NCBI GenBank assembly: GCA_021815405.1
Contig: JAKAGV010000001.1
Span: 310,001 to 374,000 of the forward strand
Length of the DNA: 64,000 nt
Direction of reading: 5' to 3'
Source: Bacteroidota bacterium
Lineage (GTDB): Bacteria; Bacteroidota; Ignavibacteria; Ignavibacteriales; Ignavibacteriaceae
Each line of letters starts with the position of its first letter. The stretch's first letter is position 1. Under the pieces are notes generated by a model. That model was given only the letters and a program-made list of their open reading frames with translations, made no database searches and had not been told where the DNA came from. This document shows, one piece after another, positions 9,891-64,000 of this stretch. The position numbers and the translations under genes are program-made.

Positions 9891-10994
9891 ATGACAATCG
9901 AAGAATTTAAAAATCAATTCGGAATCATCGGAAAGACAAAGGAAATCCGGGACTTAATAGATATAACGATGCAAGTTGCAAAGTCAGATATTTCTGTTCT
10001 GATATACGGTGAAAGCGGCACAGGTAAAGAAATTTTCGCACGTGCCATTCATGAATACAGTAATAGGGCTGATAAACAATTCTTAAGTATTAATTGCGGC
10101 GCAATACCAGAAGGGATACTTGAGAGTGAACTCTTTGGTCATAAAAAAGGTTCTTTTACCGGCGCGTTAGAAAACAGAAAAGGCTATTTTGAAATAACTG
10201 ACGGCGGAACACTTTTCTTAGATGAGATTGGGGAAATGCCTTTAATGACTCAGGTGAAGCTGCTTCGTGCAATTGAATCAAAAGAATTTATTAAGCTTGG
10301 CTCTGAAACCGTAACTAAAGTTGATGTCAGAATAATTGCAGCAACCAATAAGGATCTTCAGACTGAAGTTGAGGCTAAACGATTTCGGGAAGATTTATAT
10401 TTCAGATTGAAGGCAGTAACATTGAGCATTCCTCCATTAAGAAAAAGGAAAGCTGATATTGAAGAATTGACGCAACATTTCATAAAAAATTATTGTGAAG
10501 AACATAAAATTAATCCTCCATCAATAACACCAGGGGCACTTGAATTATTAAAAAATTATGATTGGCCCGGAAACGTAAGGGAGCTTAAAAATACGGTTGA
10601 ATCAGCAATTGCCTTGAACCGCAACGGATCATTAAATGAACAGTCATTTATACCTTTGATTAAATTAGATGGAGAATCGCAGCCGGTAAGGAATCTTCCG
10701 GTATATTTGAATAGGACAAAAGAAGAATTAGACAGAGAATTAATGTACCGTGCATTGTTCGAAATAAAAAAAGATATAATGGAATTGAAAGACCTGATTT
10801 ATCAACAAAAGAATGAAAATCAGCCTGAAGAAAAGAGTAATGATGTTGAAATTATTAAGCCGCTTGATGTAATAGAAAAGGAAGCAATAAAGAATGCTTT
10901 AGAACAAACGAAGGGGAATAAAAGAAATGCGGCTAGAATGCTTAAAATAAGCGAAAGAACATTATACAGAAAAATTAAAGAATATGATTTATAG
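9891..10994 (+). CDS. Sigma-54-dependent transcriptional activator without receiver domain
   Basis: The 367-residue protein is an AAA+ sigma-54 interaction domain plus a DNA-binding tail. Walker A is GESGTGKE (40-47), the sigma-54 contact loop is GSFTGA (87-92), Walker B ends at Asp111-Glu112 (GGTLFLDEIGEM), and an arginine-rich sensor region LRKRKADIEEL follows. A Fis-type helix-turn-helix ends the protein (NKRNAARMLKISERTLYRK). No N-terminal receiver, GAF or PAS domain precedes it, as in PspF-like activators, so its input must come from a partner protein or from level control. In Bacteroidota a similar activator commonly sits between miaB and lptE (recalled from memory), and the same order holds here. 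Confidence 0.92.
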   Translation: MTIEEFKNQFGIIGKTKEIRDLIDITMQVAKSDISVLIYGESGTGKEIFARAIHEYSNRADKQFLSINCGAIPEGILESELFGHKKGSFTGALENRKGYFEITDGGTLFLDEIGEMPLMTQVKLLRAIESKEFIKLGSETVTKVDVRIIAATNKDLQTEVEAKRFREDLYFRLKAVTLSIPPLRKRKADIEELTQHFIKNYCEEHKINPPSITPGALELLKNYDWPGNVRELKNTVESAIALNRNGSLNEQSFIPLIKLDGESQPVRNLPVYLNRTKEELDRELMYRALFEIKKDIMELKDLIYQQKNENQPEEKSNDVEIIKPLDVIEKEAIKNALEQTKGNKRNAARMLKISERTLYRKIKEYDL

Positions 10995-11073
10995 CTACGT
11001 CATTTCGCTAAAAAAACAGCTAAAATTAAAGATAATGCAAATCATCGGAAGAAAATCAGAGCACGGAATATTT

Positions 11074-11589
11074 ATGCATCTCTTTCGAAGTCTAATTCTT
11101 CCCTTGTTTATAATTTTTATCATGATTAATTTTACATCCTGTTGTGTTTATTCTTTTACCGGAGCTTCTGTTCCGAAGCATATAAAGAGTATTTCTATTT
11201 CTCCTGCAATAGATAGAAGTGGCTCGGGCGTATCAAACTTAAGTGAACTGTTTACGAATAAACTTACACAAAAATTTATAGACGACAATACGCTGAGGGT
11301 CGCTAATAAGGCGAATGCAGATGCTTCACTTGATTGTACGATTACTTCATTAACTGACGCGCCATCGGTTGTTGCGGCAGGCGAAAACGTTACCACCAGA
11401 AGAATCACAATCACCGTACAAGCTACCTACAGAGATTTAGTAAAGAGAAAGACGATCTTTGATAAGAGCTTTTCTAATTACGGCGATTACCCGGCTACCG
11501 GCGGAATAAATGAAAGACAAACTGCGATTGAGACCGCTATCGATCGCATTACAGATGATATACTTCTCGATACGGTTTCGGGATGGTAA
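11074..11589 (+). CDS. LptE-like LPS-assembly lipoprotein
   Basis: From ATG 11074 the product is 171 residues with a lipoprotein signal: hydrophobic residues 4-20, then FTSC with Cys23. ATGs at 10984 (overlapping the previous gene by 11 bases) and 11035 are in frame but would put a charged stretch before the signal. The mature part has YSFTGASVPKHIKSISISPAIDRSG, SELFTNKLTQKFIDDNTLRV and a repeated NADASLDCTITS strand, the alpha/beta layout of LptE, which plugs LptD in the outer membrane. Position right after the sigma-54 activator matches the usual Bacteroidota context. Family assignment is by pattern, so moderate confidence. Confidence 0.75.
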   Translation: MHLFRSLILPLFIIFIMINFTSCCVYSFTGASVPKHIKSISISPAIDRSGSGVSNLSELFTNKLTQKFIDDNTLRVANKANADASLDCTITSLTDAPSVVAAGENVTTRRITITVQATYRDLVKRKTIFDKSFSNYGDYPATGGINERQTAIETAIDRITDDILLDTVSGW

Positions 11590-11621
11590 GACAATTAATT
11601 TTTTAAGGTAATAAAATAAAA

Positions 11622-13073
11622 ATGGATAATGTAGTACTAATTTCGTATTTCATTTCACTCACGATTCTTTTTATTTTCGGTCTGCACGGCTTCATAATGA
11701 TTTACTACTATAACAAGTATAAGAATGTGAAGTACACGCCGAAAAAAGATTTTTCTCCTACAGCAACAGTTACAATTCAACTTCCCCTTTACAACGAGCT
11801 ATATGTTGTAGAGCGATTAATAAACGCTGTCTGCGAGATTGATTATCCCAAAGACAAAATGGAAATCCAGGTTCTTGATGATTCAACGGACGAGACAGTG
11901 CAAATTACTGCCAAGGTTGTTGAAGAAAAACGTAAGGCTGGTTTTGATATTATTCATGTTAGGCGAGACAGCCGCGAAGGCTTTAAAGCAGGTGCGCTTA
12001 AAGAAGGAATGAAGACTGCTAAGGGAGAGTACATTGCTATTTTTGATGCAGACTTTATTCCTCAAAAGGAATTCCTCAAGAAAACATTAGCATTTTTCAA
12101 CGACGATAAAGTCGGTATGGTTCAAACCAGGTGGGAACATATTAACGGCGACTATTCAATTTTGACAAGAGCTCAAGCTCTAGCTTTAGACGGTCATTTT
12201 GTAATTGAGCAGACTGTTAGAAATAAAGCAGGGTTCTTTATTAATTTCAATGGTACGGGCGGAGTTTGGAGAAGAAGCTGTATTGAAGATGCCGGCAACT
12301 GGGACGGCGATACTTTAACTGAAGATCTTGACCTTAGCTATCGTGCTCAATTAAACGGATGGAAATTTATTTATCTCAAAGATTTTACTTCGCCTGCAGA
12401 ATTGCCTTCGGAAATAAACGCACTAAAATCCCAGCAGTTCAGGTGGACGAAAGGTGCAATTGAGACTGCAAAGAAAATTCTTCCGTTAGTCTGGAAATCA
12501 AAAATCCCGCTGCGTGTAAAAATTCAATCTACTTTTCATTTAACCAACAACATTGTTTTCCCATTTATTTTACTAGCTGCAATTTTGAATGTGCCGCTAA
12601 TCTTCATTAAAAACAGCGGACCGCATCATGCTTATTTTGCAATGATGTCTATCTTCGTATTAGCTTTTATCGGTTCATTTTTATTTTATCTTTATTCACA
12701 AAAAGATATCCGGACTGATTGGAGAAAAAAGATTGTACTTTTCCCGTTATTTATGGCTGGAAGTATGGGCTTTGCAGTAAACAACTCCCGTGCAGTTTTT
12801 GAAGGGCTGATGAATCGAAAAAGTGAATTTGTGAGGACACCAAAGTTTAAAGTTGTTGACGGGAAAGATTCATGGATCGGGAAAAAATATACCAATAGAA
12901 AATTAGGCTTTTCGGTATATGTTGAATTAATCATGGCTATTTACTGTCTGATAGGTGTTGCATCTTCAATATATTTTGCTGAGATAGCAGCATTACCATT
13001 TCAAATTTTATTCTTCCTTGGATTTTCTTTTGTCTCGTTGACATCGATTAAGCATGCTTACACAAAAGCATAG
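11622..13073 (+). CDS. Membrane GT2 glycosyltransferase, cellulose-synthase-like
   Basis: The 483-residue protein has an N-terminal membrane segment (about 5-28), a GT2 catalytic domain and three or four C-terminal membrane segments (about 305-480). Catalytic signatures are LPLYNE, VLDDSTDET, FDADF (metal-binding DxD type), TEDLDLSYR (base) and QQFRWTKG (QxxRW). This arrangement fits processive or lipid-linked GT2 enzymes related to CSLA/CSLC glucosyl/mannosyl transferases. Donor and acceptor sugars cannot be read from the sequence. It is 33 bases after the lptE-like gene and 11 before a TPR gene, so probably one operon. Confidence 0.85.
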   Translation: MDNVVLISYFISLTILFIFGLHGFIMIYYYNKYKNVKYTPKKDFSPTATVTIQLPLYNELYVVERLINAVCEIDYPKDKMEIQVLDDSTDETVQITAKVVEEKRKAGFDIIHVRRDSREGFKAGALKEGMKTAKGEYIAIFDADFIPQKEFLKKTLAFFNDDKVGMVQTRWEHINGDYSILTRAQALALDGHFVIEQTVRNKAGFFINFNGTGGVWRRSCIEDAGNWDGDTLTEDLDLSYRAQLNGWKFIYLKDFTSPAELPSEINALKSQQFRWTKGAIETAKKILPLVWKSKIPLRVKIQSTFHLTNNIVFPFILLAAILNVPLIFIKNSGPHHAYFAMMSIFVLAFIGSFLFYLYSQKDIRTDWRKKIVLFPLFMAGSMGFAVNNSRAVFEGLMNRKSEFVRTPKFKVVDGKDSWIGKKYTNRKLGFSVYVELIMAIYCLIGVASSIYFAEIAALPFQILFFLGFSFVSLTSIKHAYTKA

Positions 13074-13083
13074 GAAGTAAATA

Positions 13084-13791
13084 TTGGCAAAGTCGACATC
13101 AGAAATATTCAACGACAAAGTCAGATTAATTTATGAGTATAACAATCAATCTCCGTTGTTTGTTAAAGTAGCAAACACGGAGATTGAAAATAATAATATT
13201 GATTCTGCCATAGAAATCCTGAATAAAGGAATTCAAGTTTACCCTCAATATGCAACAGCCTTTTTCCTATTAGGAAAGGCTTTTATGTTAGCCGGTAATT
13301 ATTCTTCGGCTCTTAAGCAAATCAAAAAAGGCAGCGATTTAATCCGTTCTAAAAAAACTTATGATTTTTATTTTAAAGAGCTTGAAAATAATAAGAAACA
13401 GAGATCGGTATTTCAGTCTAGCTCAAGAAACTTCTTCGTTCCTGAAAAAGAAAATTCTGCTGATAAACAAGAAGGTGAAAGTTATAGCTTCAAAAATCAT
13501 TCTGATGAAAACGAAAAACAATCTGTTGATGATAGATTAGGTCAGATAGCCAAAGAAATCTCTAATGCAAAAATACCAGAAGCAGCCGGGATAGCAGAAT
13601 TTCAAGAAGATCTTTTAGCCGGCGCTAACGGAAATATGATAGTTTCAGAAACACTTGCAAAGATTTACGCAGCACAGGGCGAGTTAAAAGAAGCGATTGA
13701 AGTCTATAAAAAATTGATAAAGAAGGATTCATCCAAAGAAAAATATTATCTTGGAAAAATAAGTGAGCTTAATTCACAACTTGAATCTTAA
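13084..13791 (+). CDS. Cytoplasmic TPR protein downstream of the GT2 gene
   Basis: The 235-residue protein begins at TTG 13084 with no signal peptide. Two TPR-like helices pairs (EIENNNIDSAIEILNKGIQV, ATAFFLLGKAFMLAGNYSSAL) are followed by a polar low-complexity linker (about 105-160) and another TPR pair at the C-terminus (ETLAKIYAAQGELKEAIEVY). Such proteins are adaptors. The 11-base gap after the glycosyltransferase suggests it may work with that enzyme; this is context only. Confidence 0.72.
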   Translation: MAKSTSEIFNDKVRLIYEYNNQSPLFVKVANTEIENNNIDSAIEILNKGIQVYPQYATAFFLLGKAFMLAGNYSSALKQIKKGSDLIRSKKTYDFYFKELENNKKQRSVFQSSSRNFFVPEKENSADKQEGESYSFKNHSDENEKQSVDDRLGQIAKEISNAKIPEAAGIAEFQEDLLAGANGNMIVSETLAKIYAAQGELKEAIEVYKKLIKKDSSKEKYYLGKISELNSQLES

Positions 13792-13830
13792 TCCGGTCAA
13801 ATTTCCCTCAATAAACATTTCTAAAATAAA

Positions 13831-14445
13831 ATGAATCCGAAGTTCAAAGCAAAAAAATTAGGAAGAGATTTTTATACCCGTGAGCTACTCACGGTTGCAA
13901 AAGAACTTTTGGGAAAAATATTAGTCAAAAAAGAAAAAGGGAAGATATTATCCGGCAGAATTGTGGAAGTTGAAGCTTACGATGGTTCAATAGATGAAGC
14001 AGCGCATACTTATATCGGCAAGACCAAGCGTAATGAAATAATGTTTAGAGCGGGCGGTTTCCTTTACGTTTATTTTACTTATGGTGCACACTTTTGCAGT
14101 AATGTTGTTACCGGAGATGAAGGCAAAGGTACTGCAGTTTTAATACGCGCTATTGAGCCAGTGGAAGGAATTGAAGTAATGGTTAAAAACCGTTACGGAA
14201 AAAATTTGGTAAGTGAAAAAGAAAGATATAATTTAACAAGCGGTCCAGGAAAAGTTTGCCAGGCACTATCAATAACAAAAAAGCATTACGGTTACGATTT
14301 AACCGGCGATAAAATATTCTTGCTGGATCAACCGATGATTAAGCCGGACGACATTGTGGTTGCAAAGAGAATCGGTATAAAAAAATCCGTTGATTTGCCA
14401 TGGCGTTTTTATATTAAAGATAATCGTTATGTTTCGAGGAAATGA
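13831..14445 (+). CDS. DNA-3-methyladenine glycosylase, AAG/MPG family
   Basis: The 204-residue enzyme matches the mammalian-type AAG/MPG family, which removes alkylated purines from DNA in base excision repair. Signatures are RDFYTRELLTVAKELLGK, the IVEVEAYDG strand with the catalytic Glu, DEAAHTYIGKTKRNEIMF, and the YVYFTYGAHFCSNVV core, then RAIEP and LTSGPGKVCQAL. It overlaps the next gene by 4 bases (ATGA), so the two are translationally coupled although their functions look unrelated. Confidence 0.93.
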   Translation: MNPKFKAKKLGRDFYTRELLTVAKELLGKILVKKEKGKILSGRIVEVEAYDGSIDEAAHTYIGKTKRNEIMFRAGGFLYVYFTYGAHFCSNVVTGDEGKGTAVLIRAIEPVEGIEVMVKNRYGKNLVSEKERYNLTSGPGKVCQALSITKKHYGYDLTGDKIFLLDQPMIKPDDIVVAKRIGIKKSVDLPWRFYIKDNRYVSRK

Positions 14446-15485
14446 TTAAGCCAAAAAATCTTTTGATTGTCCGGACAGACAGAATTGGTGATGTTATACT
14501 ATCGCTGCCGCTTGCCGGAATAGTTAAGAAGCATTTCCCCGAATGTAAGGTGACCTTTTTGCTTAGGGAATATACCAGATGTTTGGCGGTTGGTAATCCG
14601 AACATAGATGAAATAATTATCTTAACTGAAAAAGCCGGCAAGATTAGTCTAAGAAAAAATATATCCAAAATTTCTCACCGTAAGTTTGATTCCGTAATTT
14701 TGGTTTATCCAACTTTTATTACAGCATTAATAATTTTCCTATCCGGAATAAAAAACAGGATAGGAACAGGATACAGGTGGTATTCATTCCTTTTCAACCG
14801 AAAAATTTATAAGCACAGAAAGTTTGCAGAGAAGCACGAGTTGGAATTTAATGTTGAGATGCTAAACGAATTTGGAATTCAAGAAGAGGTCAACGAAGAT
14901 AAAGTAATTTTCAATTTGAAACCGGAAGAGAAGAGTAATACTTTAATCGAAGAATTATTCTCGGCAAATAATATTCAAAATGATAAACCGGTAATTATTA
15001 TACATCCAGGGAGCGGCGGCAGCGCTGTTGATTTGCCTCTTGAAAAGTTTAAGGAATTAGTTCAGATTATAGCCTTGAAAACTGATTCTACAATAATTAT
15101 TACCGGTACCGACTCGGAAAAATCAATCTGCAGCGACCTTGTAATTTCAGATAAGATTTATAATTTTGCCGGTAAGGTTGATCTTGCCGGGCTGATTGCT
15201 TTAATTGATAAGTCGGATATTTTTATTTCGAATTCAACCGGACCGATTCATATCGCGGCAGCGTTAGGAAAATTTACGATTGGATTTTATCCAAAGATTC
15301 TTTCATGCTCACCGCGAAGATGGGGTCCTTACACAATTAAAAAAAATATCTTTACACCGGAAATAGAATGCTCTAATTGCACAAGAGGTCAATGTGAAAG
15401 ATTAGACTGCATGAGCACTATCGATCCGGGAAAAGTTTTTAAAAGTATAGAAGAAGTATTTCATTCGCAACTACGGAGAATTTAA
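14442..15485 (+). CDS. GT9 ADP-heptose:LPS heptosyltransferase-like
   Basis: The 347-residue protein has the GT9 N-terminal strand (LLIVRTDRIGDVILSLPL), a central linker and a second Rossmann half with IIHPGSGG and SNSTGPIHIAAALGKFTIGFY, where SNSTGP(I/M)H is the donor-site signature. These enzymes transfer heptose from ADP-heptose to the LPS core at the cytoplasmic face. Length fits WaaC/WaaF. Which heptose is transferred, or whether another sugar is used, cannot be told. It overlaps the neighbours at both ends (4 bases and 1 base). Confidence 0.85.
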   Translation: MIKPKNLLIVRTDRIGDVILSLPLAGIVKKHFPECKVTFLLREYTRCLAVGNPNIDEIIILTEKAGKISLRKNISKISHRKFDSVILVYPTFITALIIFLSGIKNRIGTGYRWYSFLFNRKIYKHRKFAEKHELEFNVEMLNEFGIQEEVNEDKVIFNLKPEEKSNTLIEELFSANNIQNDKPVIIIHPGSGGSAVDLPLEKFKELVQIIALKTDSTIIITGTDSEKSICSDLVISDKIYNFAGKVDLAGLIALIDKSDIFISNSTGPIHIAAALGKFTIGFYPKILSCSPRRWGPYTIKKNIFTPEIECSNCTRGQCERLDCMSTIDPGKVFKSIEEVFHSQLRRI

Positions 15486-16270
15486 TGTATAAATATTTTG
15501 GTGCGTTATTTCTAGTTTTAATATTGTTCAGGTTGGCAAATGCTCAAGACGATGTAAAATTTAGGAAGATAGAAAATAAAGCATTTACTGTAGGAGAGAA
15601 GCTAACATTCGACGTTAAATATGGTTTTGTAACAGCCGGAGTAGCGACAATGGCTGTTCCAAGAATAAAGAGAATATCGGGGAGAGAAGTTTATAATATT
15701 ACATTTGATGTTAATTCGGTCCCGAGTTTTGATTGGATTTATAAAGTAAGAGATCATTACGAAACTTATGTTGATGTTCAAGGTCTGTTTCCATGGCGGT
15801 TTGAGCAGCACATCAGGGAAGGACACTTCAGCAGAGACTTCTCAGCTTTTTTCGATCAACGAAACGGAATAGCAAAAACTTCCAACGGCGAATATAAAAT
15901 TCCCCGTTATGTTAACGACATTGTTTCAGCTTTCTATTACGCCAGGACTTTAGACTTTTCCAAACTGAAGTACGGAGAAACAATTCAGTTAAAGAATTTT
16001 TATAAAGATACGGTATATACACTCGATGTAAAATATCTTGGCACTGATAAAGCTGAAGTTCCGGCTGGAACTTTTAATTGCATTGTGGTTGAGCCAATTA
16101 TAGTAAAAGGCGGGCTGTTTAAAAGCGAGGGAAGCATTTTTATCTGGCTTACCGACGATGAGCTTCACATACCGGTTAAGGTAAAGTCAAAGATAATTAT
16201 CGGTTCCATAGATGCTGTATTGACACATTATCAGGGTCTTGCCGGTAAACTTACATCAAAAATTAATTAA
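15485..16270 (+). CDS. DUF3108 exported protein
   Basis: The 261-residue protein has a signal peptide (about 1-20, ending NAQ) and a DUF3108-type beta-rich body: F(T)VGEKLTFDVKYGFVTAGVA, then RDHYETYVD, FEQHIREG and VPAGTFNCIVVEP. DUF3108 proteins are periplasmic, lipid-binding-like beta sandwiches of unknown role. Start overlaps the glycosyltransferase stop in TAATG, so it belongs to the same transcript. Confidence 0.82.
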   Translation: MYKYFGALFLVLILFRLANAQDDVKFRKIENKAFTVGEKLTFDVKYGFVTAGVATMAVPRIKRISGREVYNITFDVNSVPSFDWIYKVRDHYETYVDVQGLFPWRFEQHIREGHFSRDFSAFFDQRNGIAKTSNGEYKIPRYVNDIVSAFYYARTLDFSKLKYGETIQLKNFYKDTVYTLDVKYLGTDKAEVPAGTFNCIVVEPIIVKGGLFKSEGSIFIWLTDDELHIPVKVKSKIIIGSIDAVLTHYQGLAGKLTSKIN

Positions 16271-16307
16271 GGTAGAAAGTCAGTCTCCTTTTATTTATTT
16301 TCACATT

Positions 16308-17282
16308 ATGGATGAATTAAACAACAAACCCGAGCTTGACGAACAGTCTTCTGAAACAAACGAATCAGAGCAAAACAATTTGATGGATAATAATGGTATT
16401 AAGCCGAGAATTCACCCAATAACCGCGGCTCTTATCGGTTTATTCGGAGGCTTCTTTCTTTATCAATTTGTCGGCGGTGTGCTCATGCTGCTTGTGTTTG
16501 GATTTGACTTGAAGGATGCTCCTGTAAATAGCATGCGACTGATGACCGTAGCCGGTGAAATTCTTTTTATACTTCTGCCTGCGTTAATCTTTTCCAAAAT
16601 ATTTTATGAAGACGTTGGGCATATCATTCGCTTCAAGTTTCCTAAGGCGGAAGAAGTATTTTTATTCGTAATCGGCATCGCAGTTCTTATTCCAATGATC
16701 AATTATTATATCTCTATTCAGACTTACTTCATAAATGTTTGGTCTGTTAGCTCTCCATTTGTTCATGCCGTTAAATCTTTTCTTGATAAGTTAAACAGCA
16801 TGGTTGATCAAACATACAGCAATTTGTTAAGTACAAAATCTATTCTTGACGGACTTTTTGTAATAATAGTTGTCTCAGTTGTTCCGGCACTTTGTGAAGA
16901 GGTTATGTTTAGGGGCTTTATTCAAAAGAGTTTTGAGTTTAAACTAAAGCCAATATGGGCTGCAGTTATTACCGCAATTTTCTTCGGACTTTACCATTTC
17001 AATCCATATGGCTTAATTCCTTTAATTGGGCTTGGATTATATTTTGGATACGCTGCCTACATGAGCAACTCCATCTTTGTCCCCATGTCCCTGCATTTTG
17101 CCAATAATTTTATGGCGGTAATTTTTTATTTTATTTTCGGTGATGATGATGTAATAAATTCCACTATTGATAAAAACTTTAACCTTCAATCTTCACTATT
17201 GATTTTTACAGGTCTTTTGGTTTTATTCTTAGTAGTAATTTTCTTTATTAAAAGATATTATGAACAAACCAAGAAAGTATAG
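16308..17282 (+). CDS. CPBP-family intramembrane glutamic protease
   Basis: The ATG at 16308 is preferred; a TTG at 16239 would overlap the previous gene by 32 bases. The 324-residue protein has an acidic N-terminal tail and about seven or eight membrane segments. The Abi/CPBP active site is visible as CEEVMFRG (Glu197, Glu198) followed by FGLYHF and, later, MSLHFANNF with the conserved histidine and asparagine. Members cleave or process membrane substrates; in bacteria roles are mostly unknown. It is followed 8 bases later by a strongly SD-led gene. Confidence 0.88.
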   Translation: MDELNNKPELDEQSSETNESEQNNLMDNNGIKPRIHPITAALIGLFGGFFLYQFVGGVLMLLVFGFDLKDAPVNSMRLMTVAGEILFILLPALIFSKIFYEDVGHIIRFKFPKAEEVFLFVIGIAVLIPMINYYISIQTYFINVWSVSSPFVHAVKSFLDKLNSMVDQTYSNLLSTKSILDGLFVIIVVSVVPALCEEVMFRGFIQKSFEFKLKPIWAAVITAIFFGLYHFNPYGLIPLIGLGLYFGYAAYMSNSIFVPMSLHFANNFMAVIFYFIFGDDDVINSTIDKNFNLQSSLLIFTGLLVLFLVVIFFIKRYYEQTKKV

Positions 17283-17290
17283 GAGGAAAT

Positions 17291-17644
17291 ATGCCTGTTT
17301 GTCCTAATTGCGGTTATGAATATGTTTCCGGAATAACTTATTGTCGAGATTGCGGTGTTCCATTAGTTTCGGAAAACTATTATGTTAAGCCTGAAAATTG
17401 GAGCGAAGAAAACTGGGAAGTAGTTTATACTTCGAGCCAGGAATTTGAAGTTGAAATGCTGAAGGATAATCTTGAAGGAGCAGGGATCCCTGCGGCAATA
17501 CTTTCACAAAAAGATAGAAACTTTCCGGCTCCGGGTGATTTTTCCATCGTAAAGCTGCTGGTACATAAGGAAGATGTTCAAAGTGCTTTAAATTTTATTG
17601 AGCAAATAAAAAATCAATTACCAGGCGAGGAAGAAGAGAAGTAA
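17291..17644 (+). CDS. Zinc-ribbon plus DUF2007 protein
   Basis: The 117-residue protein begins with a CPNCG...CRDCG zinc ribbon (Cys4, Cys7, Cys18, Cys21) followed by a DUF2007-type signal-transducing domain (WEVVYTSSQEFEVEMLKDNLEGAGIPAAIL, then VKLLVHKEDVQSAL). DUF2007 domains are small ferredoxin-fold modules without known ligand. A full AGGAGG Shine-Dalgarno lies at 17281-17286, one of the clearest in the window. It shares one base with cdsA (TAATG). Confidence 0.82.
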   Translation: MPVCPNCGYEYVSGITYCRDCGVPLVSENYYVKPENWSEENWEVVYTSSQEFEVEMLKDNLEGAGIPAAILSQKDRNFPAPGDFSIVKLLVHKEDVQSALNFIEQIKNQLPGEEEEK

Positions 17645-18468
17645 TGCCCATTTCAAATACGGCAAAGAGAGTACTTGTTTCTTTAATAACCATACCGCTT
17701 ATCTTAGCCGTAAGTTATATAGGTAGTTTTGTTTTTTTCTCTTTTGTTGTAGCAGTAGCGCTCATTTCTTTTTATGAATTTTCTTCGTTTGTAAAAAATA
17801 AAGATATAAATGTAAATGTTTGGATCGGTTATTTTAGCTTAATCTTTCTCACAGTTAATCAATTTAATAATGCATTTGATACTTATACATTTATCATTGT
17901 GCTGATGATAATAGTATCTACGGTAGAACTATTCAGAAATAAAAACTCCGCAATCTATAATATTGGCGCAACACTCCTGGGGATATTCTACATCGGCATA
18001 TTCGCAAGTTCGCTAATAGGAATAAGAGAATTTTATCCTGCGGTTGGAGATATTTATTTACGCGGCGGTTACGTAATAATTTCCATTTTCATTACAATTT
18101 GGGTGTGCGATTCTGCTGCCTTTTTTGGCGGAACTGCATTTGGAAAGCATAAGTTGTTTGTACGTGTCAGTCCAAACAAAAGTTGGGAAGGTGCAGTTTT
18201 TGGCTTTATTTTCGCACTGCTAACTATGATATTATTAAAAGAAATTTTACTGAATTTCCTTTCGTGGGAAACAGTGATTGCTTTTGGAATTATTATCGGA
18301 ACAGTCGGGCAAATCGGTGATCTGATTGAATCGCTGTTTAAGCGTGATGCCGGAGTAAAAGATTCTTCCAACCTGATTCCCGGGCACGGCGGAATTTTTG
18401 ACCGCTTTGACTCGCTTCTTTTTACAGCTCCGGTAATTTTGCTTTATATGAAATATTTTCAACGATAA
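17644..18468 (+). CDS. cdsA: Phosphatidate cytidylyltransferase CdsA
   Basis: The 274-residue polytopic protein makes CDP-diacylglycerol from phosphatidate and CTP, the branch point of phospholipid synthesis in the inner membrane. About seven or eight hydrophobic segments precede the family signature near the C-terminus: GDLIESLFKRDAGVKDSSNLIPGHGGIFDR(F)DSL, with conserved Asp, Lys, Arg and His residues. SPNKSWEGAVFG upstream is also typical. Translational coupling to the zinc-ribbon gene is likely. Confidence 0.94.
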   Translation: MPISNTAKRVLVSLITIPLILAVSYIGSFVFFSFVVAVALISFYEFSSFVKNKDINVNVWIGYFSLIFLTVNQFNNAFDTYTFIIVLMIIVSTVELFRNKNSAIYNIGATLLGIFYIGIFASSLIGIREFYPAVGDIYLRGGYVIISIFITIWVCDSAAFFGGTAFGKHKLFVRVSPNKSWEGAVFGFIFALLTMILLKEILLNFLSWETVIAFGIIIGTVGQIGDLIESLFKRDAGVKDSSNLIPGHGGIFDRFDSLLFTAPVILLYMKYFQR

Positions 18469-18504
18469 TTTTAAACGAAATTATTACCAGCTTCTATTCC
18501 AAAG

Positions 18505-19815
18505 ATGAAGACCAACGATAAGATAAATATTATTACTTTAGGCTGCTCAAAGAACACTGTTGATTCCGAAAGATTGATGCATCAGATCCGAATGAATAAC
18601 TTGAAATTGACAGACGAATCTGAAGGTGCGGGAACAATCATCATCAATACATGCGGCTTTATTGAAGCAGCTAAGGAAGAGTCTATAAATACCATCCTTA
18701 ACGCAGTGGCACTGAAACAGGAAGGAAAGATTAACAAGCTTATCGTTGCCGGCTGTCTTTCGGAGCGATATAAATCCGAGCTTCAAAAAGAAATCCCCGA
18801 AGTTGATGCATACTTTGGCACGGAAAATTATGAAGGAATTTTAAAAGAGCTTGGCGGTGAGCTTAAATATAATTTGCTCGGCGAAAGATACTTAACGACT
18901 CCTTCGCACACTGCATATCTAAAAATTTCAGAAGGCTGCGATCATCCGTGCTCATTCTGTGCAATTCCATTAATGAGAGGTAAGCATAAATCAAAGCGGA
19001 TGGAAGATTTAATCCGTGAAGCTGAATTTCTTGCACGCAACAATACTAAAGAATTAATTCTGATTGCACAGGATACGACAGATTACGGCAAAGATATTTA
19101 TGATAAAAGAGTTCTTTCAGAATTATTAAACAAGTTGAGTGAGATTGACGGCATCGAATGGATTCGATTGATGTATGCGTATCCTTCTCATTTTCCTGGT
19201 GATGTAATTGATGTAATTGCCGAAAATCCAAAAGTACTTAATTATGTCGATATACCACTTCAGCATATATCGGATAAAGTTCTTAAATCGATGAGACGAG
19301 GCGTTACCGGGAAAAGAACCAGGGAATTAATAAGCAAACTCCGAGATAGAATTCCGGATATTGTAATTAGGACTACGTTTATTACCGGTTATCCAAACGA
19401 AACAGAAGATGATTTTCAAGAGTTAAAAGATTTTATAAGCGAGACAAAGTTTGAAAGGATCGGCGCTTTCACATTTTCAATGGAAGAAAATACTTCGAGC
19501 TTTATATTAGGAGATCCTGTACCGGAAAAGGTTAAGATTGAACGAAAAGAAATTCTAATGGAGCTTCAAAAAGAAATTTCATTTGAGAAGAACAAAGAAT
19601 TAATCGGTAAAAAGCTAAAAGTATTAATTGAACGGACGGAGGGTGATTTTTATATTGGGCGTTCTTACAGAGATGCACCCGAAGTTGACGGTGAGATTTT
19701 AATTCCGTTAAATGGTATTGATGTAAAGGAAGGAAATTTTTATTATGTTAAGGTTACAGATTGCAATGAGTATGATTTGTTTGCAAAGTTTACAGGGAAA
19801 GAGAGCGAAAAATGA
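18505..19815 (+). CDS. rimO: Ribosomal protein S12 methylthiotransferase RimO
   Basis: The 436-residue radical SAM enzyme methylthiolates Asp of ribosomal protein S12. The UPF0004 domain carries Cys14 (LGCSKNTVDSE, the RimO-specific motif), Cys50 and Cys84; the SAM cluster cysteines are Cys145, Cys149 and Cys152 (GCDHPCSFC). A TRAM domain ends the protein. LGCSKN and IAQDTTDYGKD distinguish it from MiaB at 6672. It overlaps the GWxTD gene by 4 bases (ATGA). Confidence 0.95.
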   Translation: MKTNDKINIITLGCSKNTVDSERLMHQIRMNNLKLTDESEGAGTIIINTCGFIEAAKEESINTILNAVALKQEGKINKLIVAGCLSERYKSELQKEIPEVDAYFGTENYEGILKELGGELKYNLLGERYLTTPSHTAYLKISEGCDHPCSFCAIPLMRGKHKSKRMEDLIREAEFLARNNTKELILIAQDTTDYGKDIYDKRVLSELLNKLSEIDGIEWIRLMYAYPSHFPGDVIDVIAENPKVLNYVDIPLQHISDKVLKSMRRGVTGKRTRELISKLRDRIPDIVIRTTFITGYPNETEDDFQELKDFISETKFERIGAFTFSMEENTSSFILGDPVPEKVKIERKEILMELQKEISFEKNKELIGKKLKVLIERTEGDFYIGRSYRDAPEVDGEILIPLNGIDVKEGNFYYVKVTDCNEYDLFAKFTGKESEK

Positions 19816-21095
19816 AAACTTTGTTTTTAATCGCGTTGCAGGTTATTTTAACCGCACTGTTCATTCAAGCCCAGGTTGAAGATGCTACTGAATCTAATGC
19901 ATACAACCAACGTCCAAAATTCTTTCAAGATTTTTTGGAATTTTCTGCAGGGAAGAAAGACCTAACCAGGCTTGATGCATTTGTCCTGGTACCTTTTACT
20001 ACTGTCCAATTTGTAAAATCGAATAAAGGATTTAACGGCAGCTATTCTGTAACAATTTCAGTTTTTGACAAGGATAAGGAGAAGCTTATCGAAGAAAAAA
20101 GCTGGAATGAAAATATTTCAGCCAAAGATTTTAATGAAACTACTAACAAGGAAAACTATAATCTAAATCTCAAATCGTTTTATCTTCAGCCAGGGGACTA
20201 TGTCATACGAACTGCAGTTGAAGATAAAGAATCAAGTGCCGAATATCCGAAAGAAGTAAAACTGAAAATAAGAGACTTCTCAGGTGAACTGGCAATAAGT
20301 GATATAATGCTTCTCGATAAGAGAGTAAAGGAAGAAGGGAAAAATAAAATATCTCCCAACGTTACCGGCAACGTAGCATTGCAAAAAGATGGACTCCCGA
20401 TATTTTTCGAAATTTATTCCAAAGAGCCGCAAAAATTAAATATTGATTATAAAGTTCTGGATAGAAGAAAAGATCCAATTTATAAAAATATTGAATTAAA
20501 AAATATTGATACCGGTCGTACACAAATATTTTATACAATTCGAGACAGCAGCTTCAGCCTTGGGTTATATAATCTAAAAATCGAATTGAAAGACAGCGCA
20601 AATAAAACTCTTGCTTCGATTACAAGACCGTTTTATTCACGCTGGGCAGGCATACCTTCAACTATTAGTGATCTAAGCAAAGCAGTAGAAGAAATGGTAT
20701 ATATTGCTTCTCCAAGTGATATTGCTGAAATAAAATCCGCTAAGACAAAAGACGAGGAGCTTAAAAGATTTTTAGCATATTGGAAGAAGATGGATCCAAC
20801 TCCGGGTACCGGCGAGAATGAAATCTTTGACGAATATTATAGAAGGGTCGCTTATGCAAATGAACATTTCTCTCATTATATTCCTGGGTGGAGATCAGAT
20901 CAGGGGATGGTATTTATTCTTCTAGGACCTCCCGACAACGTCGACCGCCACCCGTTTGATATTGATTCAAAACCTTATGAAATATGGCAGTACTACACAC
21001 TCAATAGAAGTTTCATTTTTGTAGATGAAACAGGTTTTGGAGATTATAGGTTAATTACTCCGTTGACCGGTGATCTTTACAAATTCAGAAGGTAA
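19812..21095 (+). CDS. GWxTD-domain exported protein
   Basis: The 427-residue protein has a signal peptide (about 1-20, ending IQAQ). The body is beta-rich. The C-terminal 120 residues carry the GWxTD domain: FLAYWKKMDPTPGTGENE, YYRRVAYANEHFS and a variant IPGWRSDQGMVFILLGPPD, where Ser replaces Thr. GWxTD proteins occur in Bacteroidota, Acidobacteriota and relatives and have no known activity. It is coupled to rimO and is 2 bases from the kinase gene. Confidence 0.85.
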   Translation: MKTLFLIALQVILTALFIQAQVEDATESNAYNQRPKFFQDFLEFSAGKKDLTRLDAFVLVPFTTVQFVKSNKGFNGSYSVTISVFDKDKEKLIEEKSWNENISAKDFNETTNKENYNLNLKSFYLQPGDYVIRTAVEDKESSAEYPKEVKLKIRDFSGELAISDIMLLDKRVKEEGKNKISPNVTGNVALQKDGLPIFFEIYSKEPQKLNIDYKVLDRRKDPIYKNIELKNIDTGRTQIFYTIRDSSFSLGLYNLKIELKDSANKTLASITRPFYSRWAGIPSTISDLSKAVEEMVYIASPSDIAEIKSAKTKDEELKRFLAYWKKMDPTPGTGENEIFDEYYRRVAYANEHFSHYIPGWRSDQGMVFILLGPPDNVDRHPFDIDSKPYEIWQYYTLNRSFIFVDETGFGDYRLITPLTGDLYKFRR

Positions 21096-57591: not shown

Positions 57592-58182
57592 GTGAGAGTA
57601 TTATATGTTTCGTTAATTGTAGTTCTAATTGACCAGATTTCTAAACTGGCTGTAAAAGGGATTTCGATTCCATTCCTAAAAATTAATCTTTCAGGAATGT
57701 ATATCGGTCAAAAGATTCATCTAATCGGAAATAATTTCAATATCGCCTTTGTAGAAAATCCCGGCATCGCGTTCGGTATTGATCCTGGCAACTCAGTCAG
57801 AATATTTGTTTGCTTATTTTCGTTAGCGGCTAGTATAGCTTTGTTCATCTATATTCTTAAAAATAGAAATAAACCTTTAGGGTTTAGGTTGTCATTGGCG
57901 TTGATCTTAGGCGGGGCATTAGGAAATCTTGTAGACAGGATGTTTTATGGGATTATTTATGGATATGCGCCGCTTTTTTACGGAAGAGTAGTCGACTTCT
58001 TTAATATTCGCTTTTTTGATATTTTTATTTTGAACCGGATTTTAGGCAGTTATGTTTTTAACGTTGCCGATGCTGCGGTAACTTTTGGAGTAATTTATTT
58101 TCTAATAGTTCTAAATAAAGAGAGACATATCGAAGCCGAAACCTCAGATGTTGAAAATTTAATTGCAGAAAATAAGGAATAA
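57592..58182 (+). CDS. lspA: Lipoprotein signal peptidase LspA, first copy
   Basis: The 196-residue membrane aspartic protease removes signal peptides from prolipoproteins after lipidation. It starts at GTG 57592. Four membrane helices, an ENPGIAFGI motif and the catalytic pair are present: Asp115 in GNLVDRMFYG and Asp160 in FNVADAAVTFG. VVDFFNIRFFDIF follows the usual VVDF box. A second, clearly related lspA starts one base after this stop. Somewhat longer than typical 160-residue LspA because of the insert after NFNIAFVENPG and a polar tail. Confidence 0.92.
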   Translation: MRVLYVSLIVVLIDQISKLAVKGISIPFLKINLSGMYIGQKIHLIGNNFNIAFVENPGIAFGIDPGNSVRIFVCLFSLAASIALFIYILKNRNKPLGFRLSLALILGGALGNLVDRMFYGIIYGYAPLFYGRVVDFFNIRFFDIFILNRILGSYVFNVADAAVTFGVIYFLIVLNKERHIEAETSDVENLIAENKE

Positions 58183-58183
58183 T

Positions 58184-58927
58184 TTGAGAGTATTATTTGT
58201 ATCGCTTGCCATCGTTATAATTGACCAGGCATCAAAACTAATGGTGAAAGGCTTTTCAATTCCTTTTATACATTTACATTATGCCGGTATGTATGAAGGC
58301 GAAAGAATCCCCATTATCGGAAATTTTTTTAGACTTACTTTTATTGAAAATCCTGGCTTGGCTTTTGGCTTTGATCCAGGCATCAATATGAAACTCTGGA
58401 TATCAGTCTTTTCGCTTGTTGCAAGCGTGGGATTGTTAATCTATCTTTACTTAATCAGAAAGAAGAGTTTATCTCTACGACTTGCAATCGCATTTATTCT
58501 TGGTGGTGCAGTCGGCAACTTAATTGATAGAATGTTTTACGGCGTGTTTTATCATTATGCACCATTATTTTACGGAAGAGTTGTCGATTTTTTAGATTTT
58601 GATTTTTTCAACTTCAGTTTATTTGGAAGAAATTTTGATCGCTGGCCTATTTTTAATTTTGCCGACGCTTCTGTAACAATTGGAGTTTTGATTTTACTAT
58701 TCTTTTATAGACAAAATAAAAGTGAAGAAGAAATTGAATCTGGAGAAAACCCATCTGCAGCGAATGGAACAATTGCAATTCAAAATAGTTCACACACTTT
58801 AGAACGATCCTCCTCAGAAAACGATACTAAAGAATTAGATTCATCAGAAAAAGTAAGAGAGGCTAAAGAACATTTAACCAATGGCGAACCTGATAACGGA
58901 AAAGAAATACAGGATAGTAATTCCTGA
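58184..58927 (+). CDS. lspA: Lipoprotein signal peptidase LspA, second copy with acidic tail
   Basis: Start at TTG 58184 is set by alignment to copy one (RVLFVSLAIVI versus RVLYVSLIVVL); an upstream TTG at 58163 would lie within that gene. The 247-residue protein keeps FIENPGLAFGFDPG, Asp115 in GNLIDRMFYG and Asp161 in FNFADASVTIG, so the catalytic pair is intact. The last 65 residues are a hydrophilic Ser/Glu/Asn-rich tail not found in copy one, and its final 47 bases overlap rluD. The copies are alike throughout, a tandem duplication. Confidence 0.9.
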   Translation: MRVLFVSLAIVIIDQASKLMVKGFSIPFIHLHYAGMYEGERIPIIGNFFRLTFIENPGLAFGFDPGINMKLWISVFSLVASVGLLIYLYLIRKKSLSLRLAIAFILGGAVGNLIDRMFYGVFYHYAPLFYGRVVDFLDFDFFNFSLFGRNFDRWPIFNFADASVTIGVLILLFFYRQNKSEEEIESGENPSAANGTIAIQNSSHTLERSSSENDTKELDSSEKVREAKEHLTNGEPDNGKEIQDSNS

Positions 58928-61647: not shown

Positions 61648-62175
61648 TCAGATAAGTTCGGTAAATAGCTTCATATATGTTTCAGAATCAAAGCTACTGA
61701 AGCAGACAAAGATAACTTTTTCGATTGTATTATCTGATGATAAAAATTCTTTTACTGTCTTTATTGCGATTCCGGTTGCCTCTTCAACCGGGTAGCCGTA
61801 AACTCCGGTGCTGATTGCAGGGAAGGCGATTGTTTTTAATTTATTTTGAACGGCTAGATTTAAAGAATTTTTATAACAGTTAGCGAGAAGACCGTCTTCA
61901 TTATAATTCCCGCCGCGCCAAACAGGACCAACAGTATGAATAACAAACTTTGCCGGTAGATTAAAACCAGGAGTTATTTTTGCCTCGCCGGTAGGGCATC
62001 CGTTGAGATTCCTGCAATAATTTAACAACTCGGGTCCGGCGGCACGATGTATTGCACCATCAACACCACCGCCGCCAAGTAAAGATGAATTAGCAGCATT
62101 AACAATTACATCAATATTAAGTTTGGTAATGTCTCCCTTAATAATTTCCATTCTGTCTTTTAATGAAGTAGTCAT
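61648..62175 (-). CDS. Macrodomain protein, O-acetyl-ADP-ribose deacetylase-like
   Basis: The 175-residue macrodomain has [30 protein letters not shown] (catalytic Asn and ADP-ribose loop), a [29 protein letters not shown] block and the second-loop [16 protein letters not shown]. This is the YmdB/MacroD pattern, which hydrolyses O-acetyl-ADP-ribose and reverses mono-ADP-ribosylation. Single gene; no ADP-ribosyltransferase partner was seen nearby. Confidence 0.93.
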
Positions 62176-62280: not shown

Positions 62281-62415
62281 AATTCACTGAAGTTACGCAA
62301 AATGGAAGAAAAGGTTAATTTGTCATTCCGAACTAGTTTCGGAATCTTTATTTTTAAGCTGTTTTTTAGATGCTGAAACAAGTTCAGCATGACAATTGCG
62401 TAACTTCAGTTAATT
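62281..62415. mobile_element. MITE/REP-like palindromic element, copy C
   Basis: A 135-bp element with 20-bp terminal inverted repeats and one mismatch (62281-62300, 62396-62415). It is the reverse complement of copy B at 8050-8183 with six substitutions and one single-base indel (hand alignment). Inner hairpins: ttccgaactagtttcggaa and tgctgaaacaagttcagca. It starts 12 bases after the stop of the minus-strand receiver/GcvH-like gene. Confidence 0.75.
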
Positions 62416-62426
62416 CAAATATAAAA

Positions 62427-63584
62427 TTATTTCTTGAAGAATTCAGCAACCATTTTATCCCAGTCGGCATTTTCGAACTTTTCAAATTCGCCGATATATA
62501 ATTCACTTTCGTCCTTTGCCGCTGATGAGTCAACTGTGCGGATATTTTTTCTCAAGTGAATAAAACGGTCGATTTCATCCTGGAAGAAATTGACGGCGCT
62601 TTTCCCGATAGTTAGGTTTTTAATTTCTGTATCAAGGTCATCCGTATCAATTGCACAAATCCAATTTGCATTATAGGAAGTAGCATCGAGTGCTTCAAGA
62701 TTATTTTGAAGCAGCGTGTTTATCCTAATTACCTTGCCGCTGAACGGTGAATTAAAAGTTGCTAAGCGATTATCCTGCTTTATAGTAAATAGCGGCTGAC
62801 CTGCTTTTACAACCATTCCTAAGTTTGGAAGTTCGACCGCTGTTATTTTTCCGATCAGCTTTTTTGCAAAATCATCAAGACCGATTTTTGTTGTACCGTC
62901 CTGATCCATGCTTGCCCAACAGTGTCCGGATGAAATAAACACTCCGCCAGGAATTGCAAATTCATAAGTTAAGAAACGCTTTGATTCGGCAAGCTGGGTA
63001 ATATGAACTTTCGGTTTCAACTGTTTTTGGATTCTATCTTGCCTCTTAATAAGAATTTTCTTTACGAAGTCCAGCAGTTCATCTTCAGTAAATGGTTTTT
63101 GAACATAATCCATTGCACCGAACTTCATACATTCAACCGCGGTTTCAACGGTTGCGTAACCTGTTATAATTACAACGTCTATATCAGGGCGAACATGTTT
63201 TACGGATTTAGTTACTTCAACACCATCCATAATAGGCATCTTCAAGTCGGTAAAGACAAAATCATAATGATGTGTCTGAACAAGTCCCAAAGCTTCTTTT
63301 CCGTTTTCAACAGTATCAACACAATACCCATCTAGCACTAAAATTTTTCTAAAGCTGTCAAGGATAACGGGTTCGTCATCGACACACAGGATTTTTGCTT
63401 TTGGATTATCAACTTCAACCCGCTTCAATGTCTTAGCCTCTCTAGTAAAATCGAGGTTTAAACTTACGTTCAAAGCTGCTTCGCGGTCCTTACGAAGTTT
63501 CTTCTCCTGTATTCTCTTGCCCGAGTATCTGATTAAGATATCGGCAATAATGAACAATATAACTGCAATAATTAAAAGTGGCAT
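62427..63584 (-). CDS. Membrane-anchored receiver fused to a GcvH-like domain
   Basis: The 385-residue protein has an N-terminal membrane anchor (about 2-20), a linker, a receiver domain (about 62-180: ILCVDDEP acidic pocket, phosphoacceptor Asp113 in FTDLKMP, Thr141, Lys163 in QKPF) and a C-terminal GcvH-like domain (about 195-320: GHCWASMDQDGTTKIGLDDFAKKLIGKITAVELPNLG, then SPFSGKVIRIN). The residues aligned with the lipoyl-lysine motif ESVKA are QDNRL, so no lysine is available for lipoylation. A short charged C-terminal tail follows. Function is not known; the architecture suggests a phosphorylation-regulated protein interaction module at the membrane. The next gene upstream, at 63640, is another GcvH-like protein. 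Confidence 0.82.
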   Translation of the reverse strand: MPLLIIAVILFIIADILIRYSGKRIQEKKLRKDREAALNVSLNLDFTREAKTLKRVEVDNPKAKILCVDDEPVILDSFRKILVLDGYCVDTVENGKEALGLVQTHHYDFVFTDLKMPIMDGVEVTKSVKHVRPDIDVVIITGYATVETAVECMKFGAMDYVQKPFTEDELLDFVKKILIKRQDRIQKQLKPKVHITQLAESKRFLTYEFAIPGGVFISSGHCWASMDQDGTTKIGLDDFAKKLIGKITAVELPNLGMVVKAGQPLFTIKQDNRLATFNSPFSGKVIRINTLLQNNLEALDATSYNANWICAIDTDDLDTEIKNLTIGKSAVNFFQDEIDRFIHLRKNIRTVDSSAAKDESELYIGEFEKFENADWDKMVAEFFKK

Positions 63585-63639
63585 ATTCTATTCTCCTTAA
63601 AAATTATTCTTTCTCTCTTTAATTGTAATTATTGTGCAC

Positions 63640-64000
63640 TCATAATCTATCCGAGCTGCACGGTGTTAAATTTTTTATTTCGTATTCCCAATCAGACGGA
63701 ATAACTCTGTAGAGCCACCCAGTGAAGTAAGGATCTTTTTCAATTATTTTATGATCTTCTAATAATTGATTATTGCGTTCAATAATTCTTCCGCTTACAG
63801 GGCTTAAGACGGTATGAACCATTTCGTCTTTCATCTTAATTTGTGCACATGAATTTCCCTGAACAATTTCTTCGTCGACTTTTTGCAATTCAATTTCATT
63901 TATTGCATCTATCGTTTTTAGAAATAAATCTGTAACGCCAATGATTGCCGAACCGGAGTTATCGAAATAAATCCAGCTTGAATATCCAAGCCGGAAATAA
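63640..64000 (-). CDS. GcvH-like protein, 5' partial at the window edge
   Basis: The minus-strand frame is open from the right edge, so the start lies outside; a TTG at 63888 is internal. The visible 119 residues are GcvH-like: YSSWIYFDNSGSAIIGVTDLFLKTIDAINEIELQ (the HTWV...ATVGITD...LG block), then LSPVSGRIIERNNQLLEDHKIIEKDPYFTGWLYRV. Where GcvH has ESVKA this protein has MKDEM, so the lipoyl lysine is not at the expected place, though a lysine lies two residues earlier. It is 55 bases upstream of the receiver/GcvH-like gene, probably in one operon. Confidence 0.75.
   Translation of the reverse strand, partial: YFRLGYSSWIYFDNSGSAIIGVTDLFLKTIDAINEIELQKVDEEIVQGNSCAQIKMKDEMVHTVLSPVSGRIIERNNQLLEDHKIIEKDPYFTGWLYRVIPSDWEYEIKNLTPCSSDRL

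Follow-up and report, generated by a model that had tools for sequence, protein, structure and literature searches.

Gene A, which lies close to the end of the 64,000-nucleotide stretch of DNA analysed here (the window), encodes a protein in which an N-terminal membrane helix and a response-regulator receiver (REC) are followed by a domain with the fold of GcvH, from which the lipoyl lysine has been lost. It is the last gene of a conserved operon that also encodes a histidine kinase, a second REC-GcvH fusion (gene B) and a respiratory membrane module of the NrfD type. The loss of the cofactor site, taken together with the place of the gene in a conserved respiratory operon, makes A probably a docking switch for a respiratory complex rather than a protein of glycine metabolism. 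That a disarmed GcvH fold has been reused, as a sequence-only reading of the window had proposed, is well supported. A kinase and two receivers are here linked genetically with a respiratory membrane module, and a disarmed metabolic carrier serves as the output domain. A GCV_H match does not imply glycine cleavage.

A receiver joined to a disarmed GcvH fold

The reading frame of gene A runs on the minus strand from an ATG at 63584 to a stop at 62427-62429 (Table 1); the sequence-only reading had the coordinates and residue numbers right and did not give the strand. An artefact of frame or start can be ruled out, because an AAGGAG ribosome-binding site precedes the ATG and 73 relatives share the identical architecture. 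Pfam places Response_reg (PF00072) on residues 65-174 (E 3.6e-31) and GCV_H (PF01597) on residues 220-336 (E 6.5e-18; 65.2 bits against a cut-off of 22.2). Both families match all 44 A members aligned, so that neither is a chance match. When the AlphaFold2 model of the protein (mean pLDDT 81.7) was submitted to Foldseek, the first eight rows were GcvH structures, with a TM-score of 0.91 by target length to the E. coli apo-H protein 3a7l, bearing out the earlier claim of a GcvH-like C-terminal domain. VIA-align 2 gave receiver chains only among the 50 matches listed, and our assignment of the GcvH fold rests on Foldseek and the sequence profiles rather than on that search.

Table 1. Features of gene A and its operon. 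Plain positions are those of the window; positions prefixed L009 are those of the locus of that name in the same genome.
Feature	Position	Strand	Basis or remark
Gene A, TM-REC-GcvH protein, 385 aa	62427..63584	minus	ORF, Pfam, structure model, relatives
AAGGAG ribosome-binding site of gene A	63593..63598	minus	8 nt before ATG, read from the sequence
Predicted N-terminal membrane helix of A, residues 2-22, with Asp15 and Arg19 inside	63519..63581	minus	
Receiver domain of A, residues 65-174	63063..63392	minus	PF00072
Phospho-acceptor Asp113 of A	63246-63248	minus	
GcvH-like domain of A, residues 205-340	62565..62972	minus	PF01597 and fold
Hairpin tip Asp271-Asn272-Arg273 of A	62766..62774	minus	Asn272 opposite the lipoyl lysine of GcvH
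Gene B, REC-GcvH, 268 aa, 3' part in the window	63640..64000	minus	Whole gene L009:3640-4446
Kinase, 13-haem cytochrome, NrfD and Fe-S genes	L009:4453-9706	minus	Beyond the window end

A different family of the biotinyl/lipoyl type, an alternative already raised in the sequence-only reading, was also checked. NQRA_N, Biotin_lipoyl_2 and HlyD_3 all fell below their Pfam cut-offs, and GCV_H is the sole barrel-sandwich-type family above cut-off in the protein. The NqrA N-terminal domain (PF05896) matches 34 of the 44 A members at E <= 0.01 and scores 18.8 bits in the window protein, under its gathering cut-off of 25. Since redox-complex subunits, NqrA among them, can contain barrel-sandwich domains, one could imagine the GcvH-like domain as a ligand or redox sensor that tunes the receiver or the kinase and has no protein partner in the complex. 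We consider this distinctly improbable: apart from fold residues, we noticed in the A-domain alignments no conserved set of residues like that of a metal or cofactor site, and the strict linkage to NrfD genes described below would stay unexplained.

By every sequence test that we ran, A is a response regulator. The receiver fold, the acidic pair, the phospho-acceptor Asp, the Thr and the Lys were all found, and a histidine kinase is encoded nearby, with the order kinase-B-A in 69 of 80 loci. Asp69, Asp70, Asp113, Thr141 and Lys163 are invariant in all 73 sequences (70 loci), and the last three are also kept in ten partial relatives that were set aside on account of contig ends, split frames or an alignment start after residue 20; the receiver residues named in the sequence-only reading are thereby upheld, and its membrane segment is confirmed too. 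No DNA-binding domain was present among the Pfam matches of either A or B, in a survey that, like the alignments, used 44 A and 28 B sequences of those available. Asp15 and Arg19, both within the membrane helix, are each invariant in the 73 sequences and in the seven of the ten set-aside sequences that reach that far. The invariance of these two charges suggests that the helix has a specific partner rather than serving as a mere anchor.

The lipoyl lysine of E. coli GcvH stands opposite Asn272 in the profile alignment of the A domain, in a hairpin aligned without a gap, and in the model residues 271-272 form the turn between strands 264-270 and 273-278; the replacement of the lysine by Asn272/Arg273, as first read from the sequence, is thus borne out. 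Among the 73 relatives, position 272 is Asn in 32, Lys in 14, Thr in nine and Gly in five, with other residues in the remainder, whereas position 273 is Arg in 53, Lys in 15, His in three, Gln in one and Thr in one. The 14 relatives with Lys272 always have Arg or Lys as the next residue, and two Calditrichota sequences from the set-aside group have Thr at 273. Two further positions, which we take to be functional in the H-protein cleft, are likewise altered. In the HEW motif, Cys (38 of the 73) or Thr (29) mostly takes the place of Glu, and varied residues replace the Asp next after the lipoyl lysine. Scores against the two curated NCBIfam GcvH models also stayed below cut-off (65.8 bits against 117 and 65.6 against 115.85). 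Judged by the missing lysine and these cut-offs, A is not a GcvH, despite its fold and a Pfam score above gathering. The loss of the lysine supports the view that its GcvH-like domain carries out no glycine-cleavage chemistry.

A conserved operon around A and B

Most of the operon of A sits outside the window. Its order is a Tat-type Fe-S protein, an NrfD/HybB-like protein, a 13-haem cytochrome, the histidine kinase, B and finally A, all on the same strand and with intergenic gaps of at most 80 bases. The survey of REC-GcvH fusions and their neighbours that the sequence-only reading had called for led to a conserved six-gene operon, with a second such fusion directly upstream of A and for the most part beyond the window. 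The receiver of B retains Asp55 and Lys105 in 75 of 75 sequences, its structure prediction has a pLDDT of 90.7, and GCV_H matches all 28 B members surveyed. At B position 208, aligned with the lipoyl lysine, Lys occurs in none of the 75: Gly is found in 26, Glu in 25 and Asp in 13, and position 207 is Asp in 48 and Glu in 13. The tip of the A domain is basic, with Arg or Lys at position 273 in 68 of 73, and that of B is mostly acidic or Gly, a pairing that, speculatively, would suit a contact between A and B.

The kinase (621 aa; L009:4453-6318, minus strand) carries a CxxCH motif (residues 112-116) and a Cx4CH motif (156-162), both kept at 95% or more in 65 sequences and placed, by eye, between two predicted membrane helices. 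From these motifs we infer haem binding and redox sensing by the kinase. Its ATPase domain contains a cysteine-rich insert (residues 434-528: C434, H438, CxxC 493-496, CxxC 507-510 and C528), likewise kept at 95% or more in the 65 sequences. The insert resembles a zinc ribbon, its match to DZR being weak and below cut-off. In all 57 sequences of the operon cytochrome chosen by score (at least 250 bits and 300 aa), 13 CxxCH motifs are present; the cytochrome upstream in locus L146 instead has 272 aa and nine CxxCH. A Tat-type Fe-S protein, an NrfD/HybB-like protein and a multihaem cytochrome c together make up the composition of an Hmc-type module. None of the NCBIfam equivalogs reached its cut-off in the operon (HmcB 318.2 against 420; HybA 237.6 against 263; HmcC 257.2 against 550; PRK10881 352.1 against 450; HmcA 59 against 400).

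A scan of named genomes gave 93 relatives, of which the best 80 loci were analysed; gene labels at these loci rest on score thresholds that we set. In a separate step, 14 duplicate loci were excluded. In 74 of the 80, the gene immediately upstream of A is B. In six of the 11 loci without the order kinase-B-A the contig breaks off in B or A or immediately ahead of either (L080, L091, L100, L102, L111, L123), A is split into two frames in three (L104, L145, L151), and the gene order differs in two (L114, L124). All six operon genes are present in 47 of the 50 loci, counted among the 74, that have B adjoining A and more than 7.5 kb of upstream sequence. In L085, L097 and L107, which make up the remainder, an A-like gene comes with Fe-S, NrfD, kinase, B and A, and the 13-haem cytochrome is missing. 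Outside the 50, loci L104, L114, L145 and L151 also hold all six genes, in L114 in a changed order.

Strict operon linkage of this kind would also be expected if A and B served the assembly or quality control of the Fe-S/NrfD/cytochrome complex, for example by gating Fe-S loading or membrane insertion, with the kinase timing assembly. A receiver-less relative of the A domain, encoded beside a second Fe-S/NrfD pair (see below), speaks for the same idea. It would be unusual, though, for a two-component system to be maintained permanently just for assembly, and we know of no assembly factor with a TM-REC-GcvH architecture; we regard this explanation as quite unlikely.

According to their taxon labels, the 80 loci come mostly from Ignavibacteriota or Bacteroidetes, with three from Calditrichia/Caldithrix and single loci labelled Elusimicrobiales, Kiritimatiellaeota and Gemmatimonadetes; these are bin labels taken as given, and the distribution outside the phylum is known from the labels of the named loci only. 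Stygiobacter electus (L129) and Melioribacter roseus are carriers that have been cultured. With its own genome included, A is present in 31 of 59 near relatives (E <= 1e-30) and in 33 of 245 genomes of its class (E <= 1e-60). The distribution within the class is patchy, and the two counts rule out an isolated fusion. Among plasmid records, there were 58 with a match to the A domain, and in every one coverage of the domain stayed below 80% and identity did not exceed 60%; of the 15 matches listed, the ten with annotation are all named GcvH or glycine cleavage protein H.

Further multihaem cytochromes are encoded downstream of A in 22 of the 53 loci with at least 4 kb of downstream sequence and are absent from the other 31. 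In locus L121, the downstream region (10795-20244, plus strand) encodes a 19-haem protein, a cytochrome b561, a 16-haem/b561 fusion, and 4-haem, porin-like, 14-haem and 7-haem proteins; MtrC/MtrF-like domains are found among them, and the porin match is below cut-off. This is likely an extracellular electron transfer cluster. Such observations point to a link between some members of the family of A and extracellular electron transfer, which need not hold for the genome of the window.

In the window itself, gene A is followed by an element of about 135 bases (62281-62415) with 20-nt inverted arms that are 95% complementary. A 14-mer from the arm occurs 44 times forward and 47 times in reverse in the genome, often in pairs about 108 bases apart, against none for a control, and by these sequence features the element is a MITE-like repeat. 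A macrodomain-like gene (61648-62175, minus strand), recognised by eye, follows A across this repeat and is probably unrelated; a small lipoprotein gene, also by eye, is likewise among the genes next after A. Further away, two overlapping tandem genes on the plus strand (57592-58182 and 58163-58927) both appear lspA-like (signal peptidase II) by eye.

GcvH relatives in the genome and the proposed role of A

The genome contains five GCV_H matches above cut-off and six NrfD matches. One of the five is an ordinary, lysine-bearing GcvH on contig C21; the other four are A, B, a membrane-anchored GcvH-like protein without a receiver (TM-GcvH) and a solo GcvH-like protein, all within 15.8 kb around two NrfD genes. 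TM-GcvH directly precedes the second Fe-S/NrfD pair. The alignment of its family with the A domain has a probability of 99.8%; the lipoyl position is Asn in seven of seven members (followed by Lys in five and Asn in two), and all seven keep an Asp in the membrane helix. The presence of TM-GcvH beside an Fe-S/NrfD pair shows that the fold travels with NrfD independently of a receiver, and phosphorylation cannot, by the same token, be general to the GcvH fold.

TM-GcvH opens a divergent operon (L009:10606-18999, plus strand), where it is followed by an Fe-S protein without a Tat motif, NrfD, a cysteine-motif protein (CIWM...CxxxxxxCENC), a kinase with CxxCH, an NtrC-type regulator, an archaemetzincin-like M54 peptidase, the solo GcvH-like protein and a second NtrC. 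The gene for the cysteine-motif protein (L009:13244-13972) gave no Pfam match at 0.01 and no NCBIfam match at 0.001; as a candidate for a further GcvH-like protein it was weak, with hhalign probabilities of 78% against the A domain and 5.5% against TM-GcvH, and it was not retained.

A glycine decarboxylase gene and two genes of the lipoate/biotin ligase family (PF03099) are located elsewhere in the genome, so that ordinary glycine cleavage and lipoylation are probably present, and separate from A. Together with the lysine-bearing GcvH encoded elsewhere, the lost lysine agrees with the original claim that A lacks GcvH chemistry. It could still be argued that the domain is lipoylated after all and serves the complex as a redox or acyl carrier, given the two PF03099 matches, the Lys at position 272 of 14 of the 73 A relatives, and the solo protein (L009:17934-18362), which has Lys at the aligned lipoyl position (a relative of it in L076 has none, by eye). 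The residues of the hairpin disfavour such a carrier: the window protein has Asn272-Arg273, Arg stands at 273 in 53 of 73 relatives, and B lacks Lys at position 208 throughout. We consider it extremely improbable.

The occurrence of a second REC-GcvH gene in an operon with a haem-motif kinase, NrfD and a multihaem cytochrome suggests a docking target for the A domain. In the model we propose, the redox proteins of the operon would link the quinone pool with periplasmic multihaem cytochromes by electron transfer, and the kinase would read the redox state of this chain via its haems and phosphorylate A and B. Phosphorylation would then alter the docking of the disarmed GcvH-like domains at the cytoplasmic face of the NrfD complex, A docking also via its helix with Asp15/Arg19, and docking would result in the complex being opened, closed or assembled. 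The output would be protein docking, neither transcription nor lipoyl chemistry. The basis for this model lies in the strict linkage of kinase-B-A with Fe-S/NrfD, the kept receiver residues and the constrained helix; a search for a known docking partner gave no match. Phospho-controlled docking of this kind, with a membrane-anchored A and a haem-reading kinase, appears to fit the evidence better than its rivals and is our leading mechanism, to which we would give somewhat short of an even chance.

An alternative output would be gene expression, with A and B serving as connectors in a transcriptional circuit in which the GcvH-like domains bind to an NtrC-type activator or the second kinase and control it. 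The divergent operon contains a second kinase and two NtrC-type genes, and across the 80 loci, where flanks are often short, NtrC-like genes (at least 150 bits) are found in 17 and second kinases (at least 200 bits) in ten. Furthermore, the available text of one survey reports that rrf1 and rrf2 of Desulfovibrio regulate expression of hmc (PMC10924467). However, 63 of the 80 loci have no such NtrC-like gene and still have the NrfD module, and A is membrane-anchored with invariant helix charges. We therefore think a purely transcriptional circuit unlikely; given the NtrC-type regulators in 17 loci, a transcriptional branch alongside docking is possible.

The outputs of known response regulators are mostly transcriptional or second-messenger enzymes. 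It is conceivable, if on balance doubtful, that the lysine-free GcvH domain constitutes a new class of output for response regulators: a docking domain gated by phosphorylation, anchored in the membrane and acting directly as a valve on an electron conduit from quinol to multihaem cytochromes. A haem-reading kinase would in this way adjust electron flow, respiratory or extracellular, immediately and without recourse to transcription. We found no description of REC-GcvH proteins in the literature covered, a coverage from which subscription journals were largely absent. If true, the model would mean that phosphorylation directly controls anaerobic or extracellular electron transfer in the Ignavibacteriota and their allies, and would explain why genes annotated as GcvH stand beside NrfD genes.

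Comparison with known systems

With GcvH itself (PF01597; E. coli 3a7l), A has the fold and the Pfam family in common, but it is without the lipoyl lysine, is fused to a receiver and a membrane helix, and is encoded beside a respiratory module instead of gcv genes. LbpA of the Hdr-like sulfur-oxidation pathway is likewise a GcvH-like protein in redox metabolism outside glycine cleavage, and in the part of its description available to us the lysine is kept in all 95 LbpA aligned (PMC6067878). A, by contrast, has lost this strictly conserved lysine and carries a receiver, and we noticed no hdr-like genes among its neighbours.

The closest NCBIfam matches of the operon are of the HmcB/HybA and HmcC/HybB types and partly HmcA, and no HmcD-F genes were seen in it, in contrast to Hmc. 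Rrf1, encoded with the Desulfovibrio Hmc complex, is a response-regulator protein. As far as the available text of the module survey goes, it is, like A, a regulator encoded with an Hmc-type complex, but one reported to regulate hmc expression and described with no mention of a GcvH-like domain (PMC10924467). The same available text describes the combination of a tail-anchored Fe-S protein, a HybB-like quinol protein and a multihaem cytochrome as a module that includes Hmc, and reports no conserved flanking genes for it (PMC10924467); GcvH, glycine cleavage and two-component are absent from the text of this survey. The operon of A shares these three kinds of redox protein and differs in having 13 CxxCH motifs in its cytochrome, where 16 or 8 haems are given in the available text (PMC10924467), and in the kinase and two REC-GcvH genes conserved with it.

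For Melioribacter roseus, the available part of the genome paper proposes that NrfCD (Mros1571-1572) takes electrons from quinol and hands them on to multihaem cytochromes of the periplasm and perhaps to Fe(III), naming only the Fe-S and NrfD proteins (PMC3534657). The locus named for this organism (L109) carries the operon of A, and, to judge from place and order, Mros1571-1572 probably belong to the same operon type.
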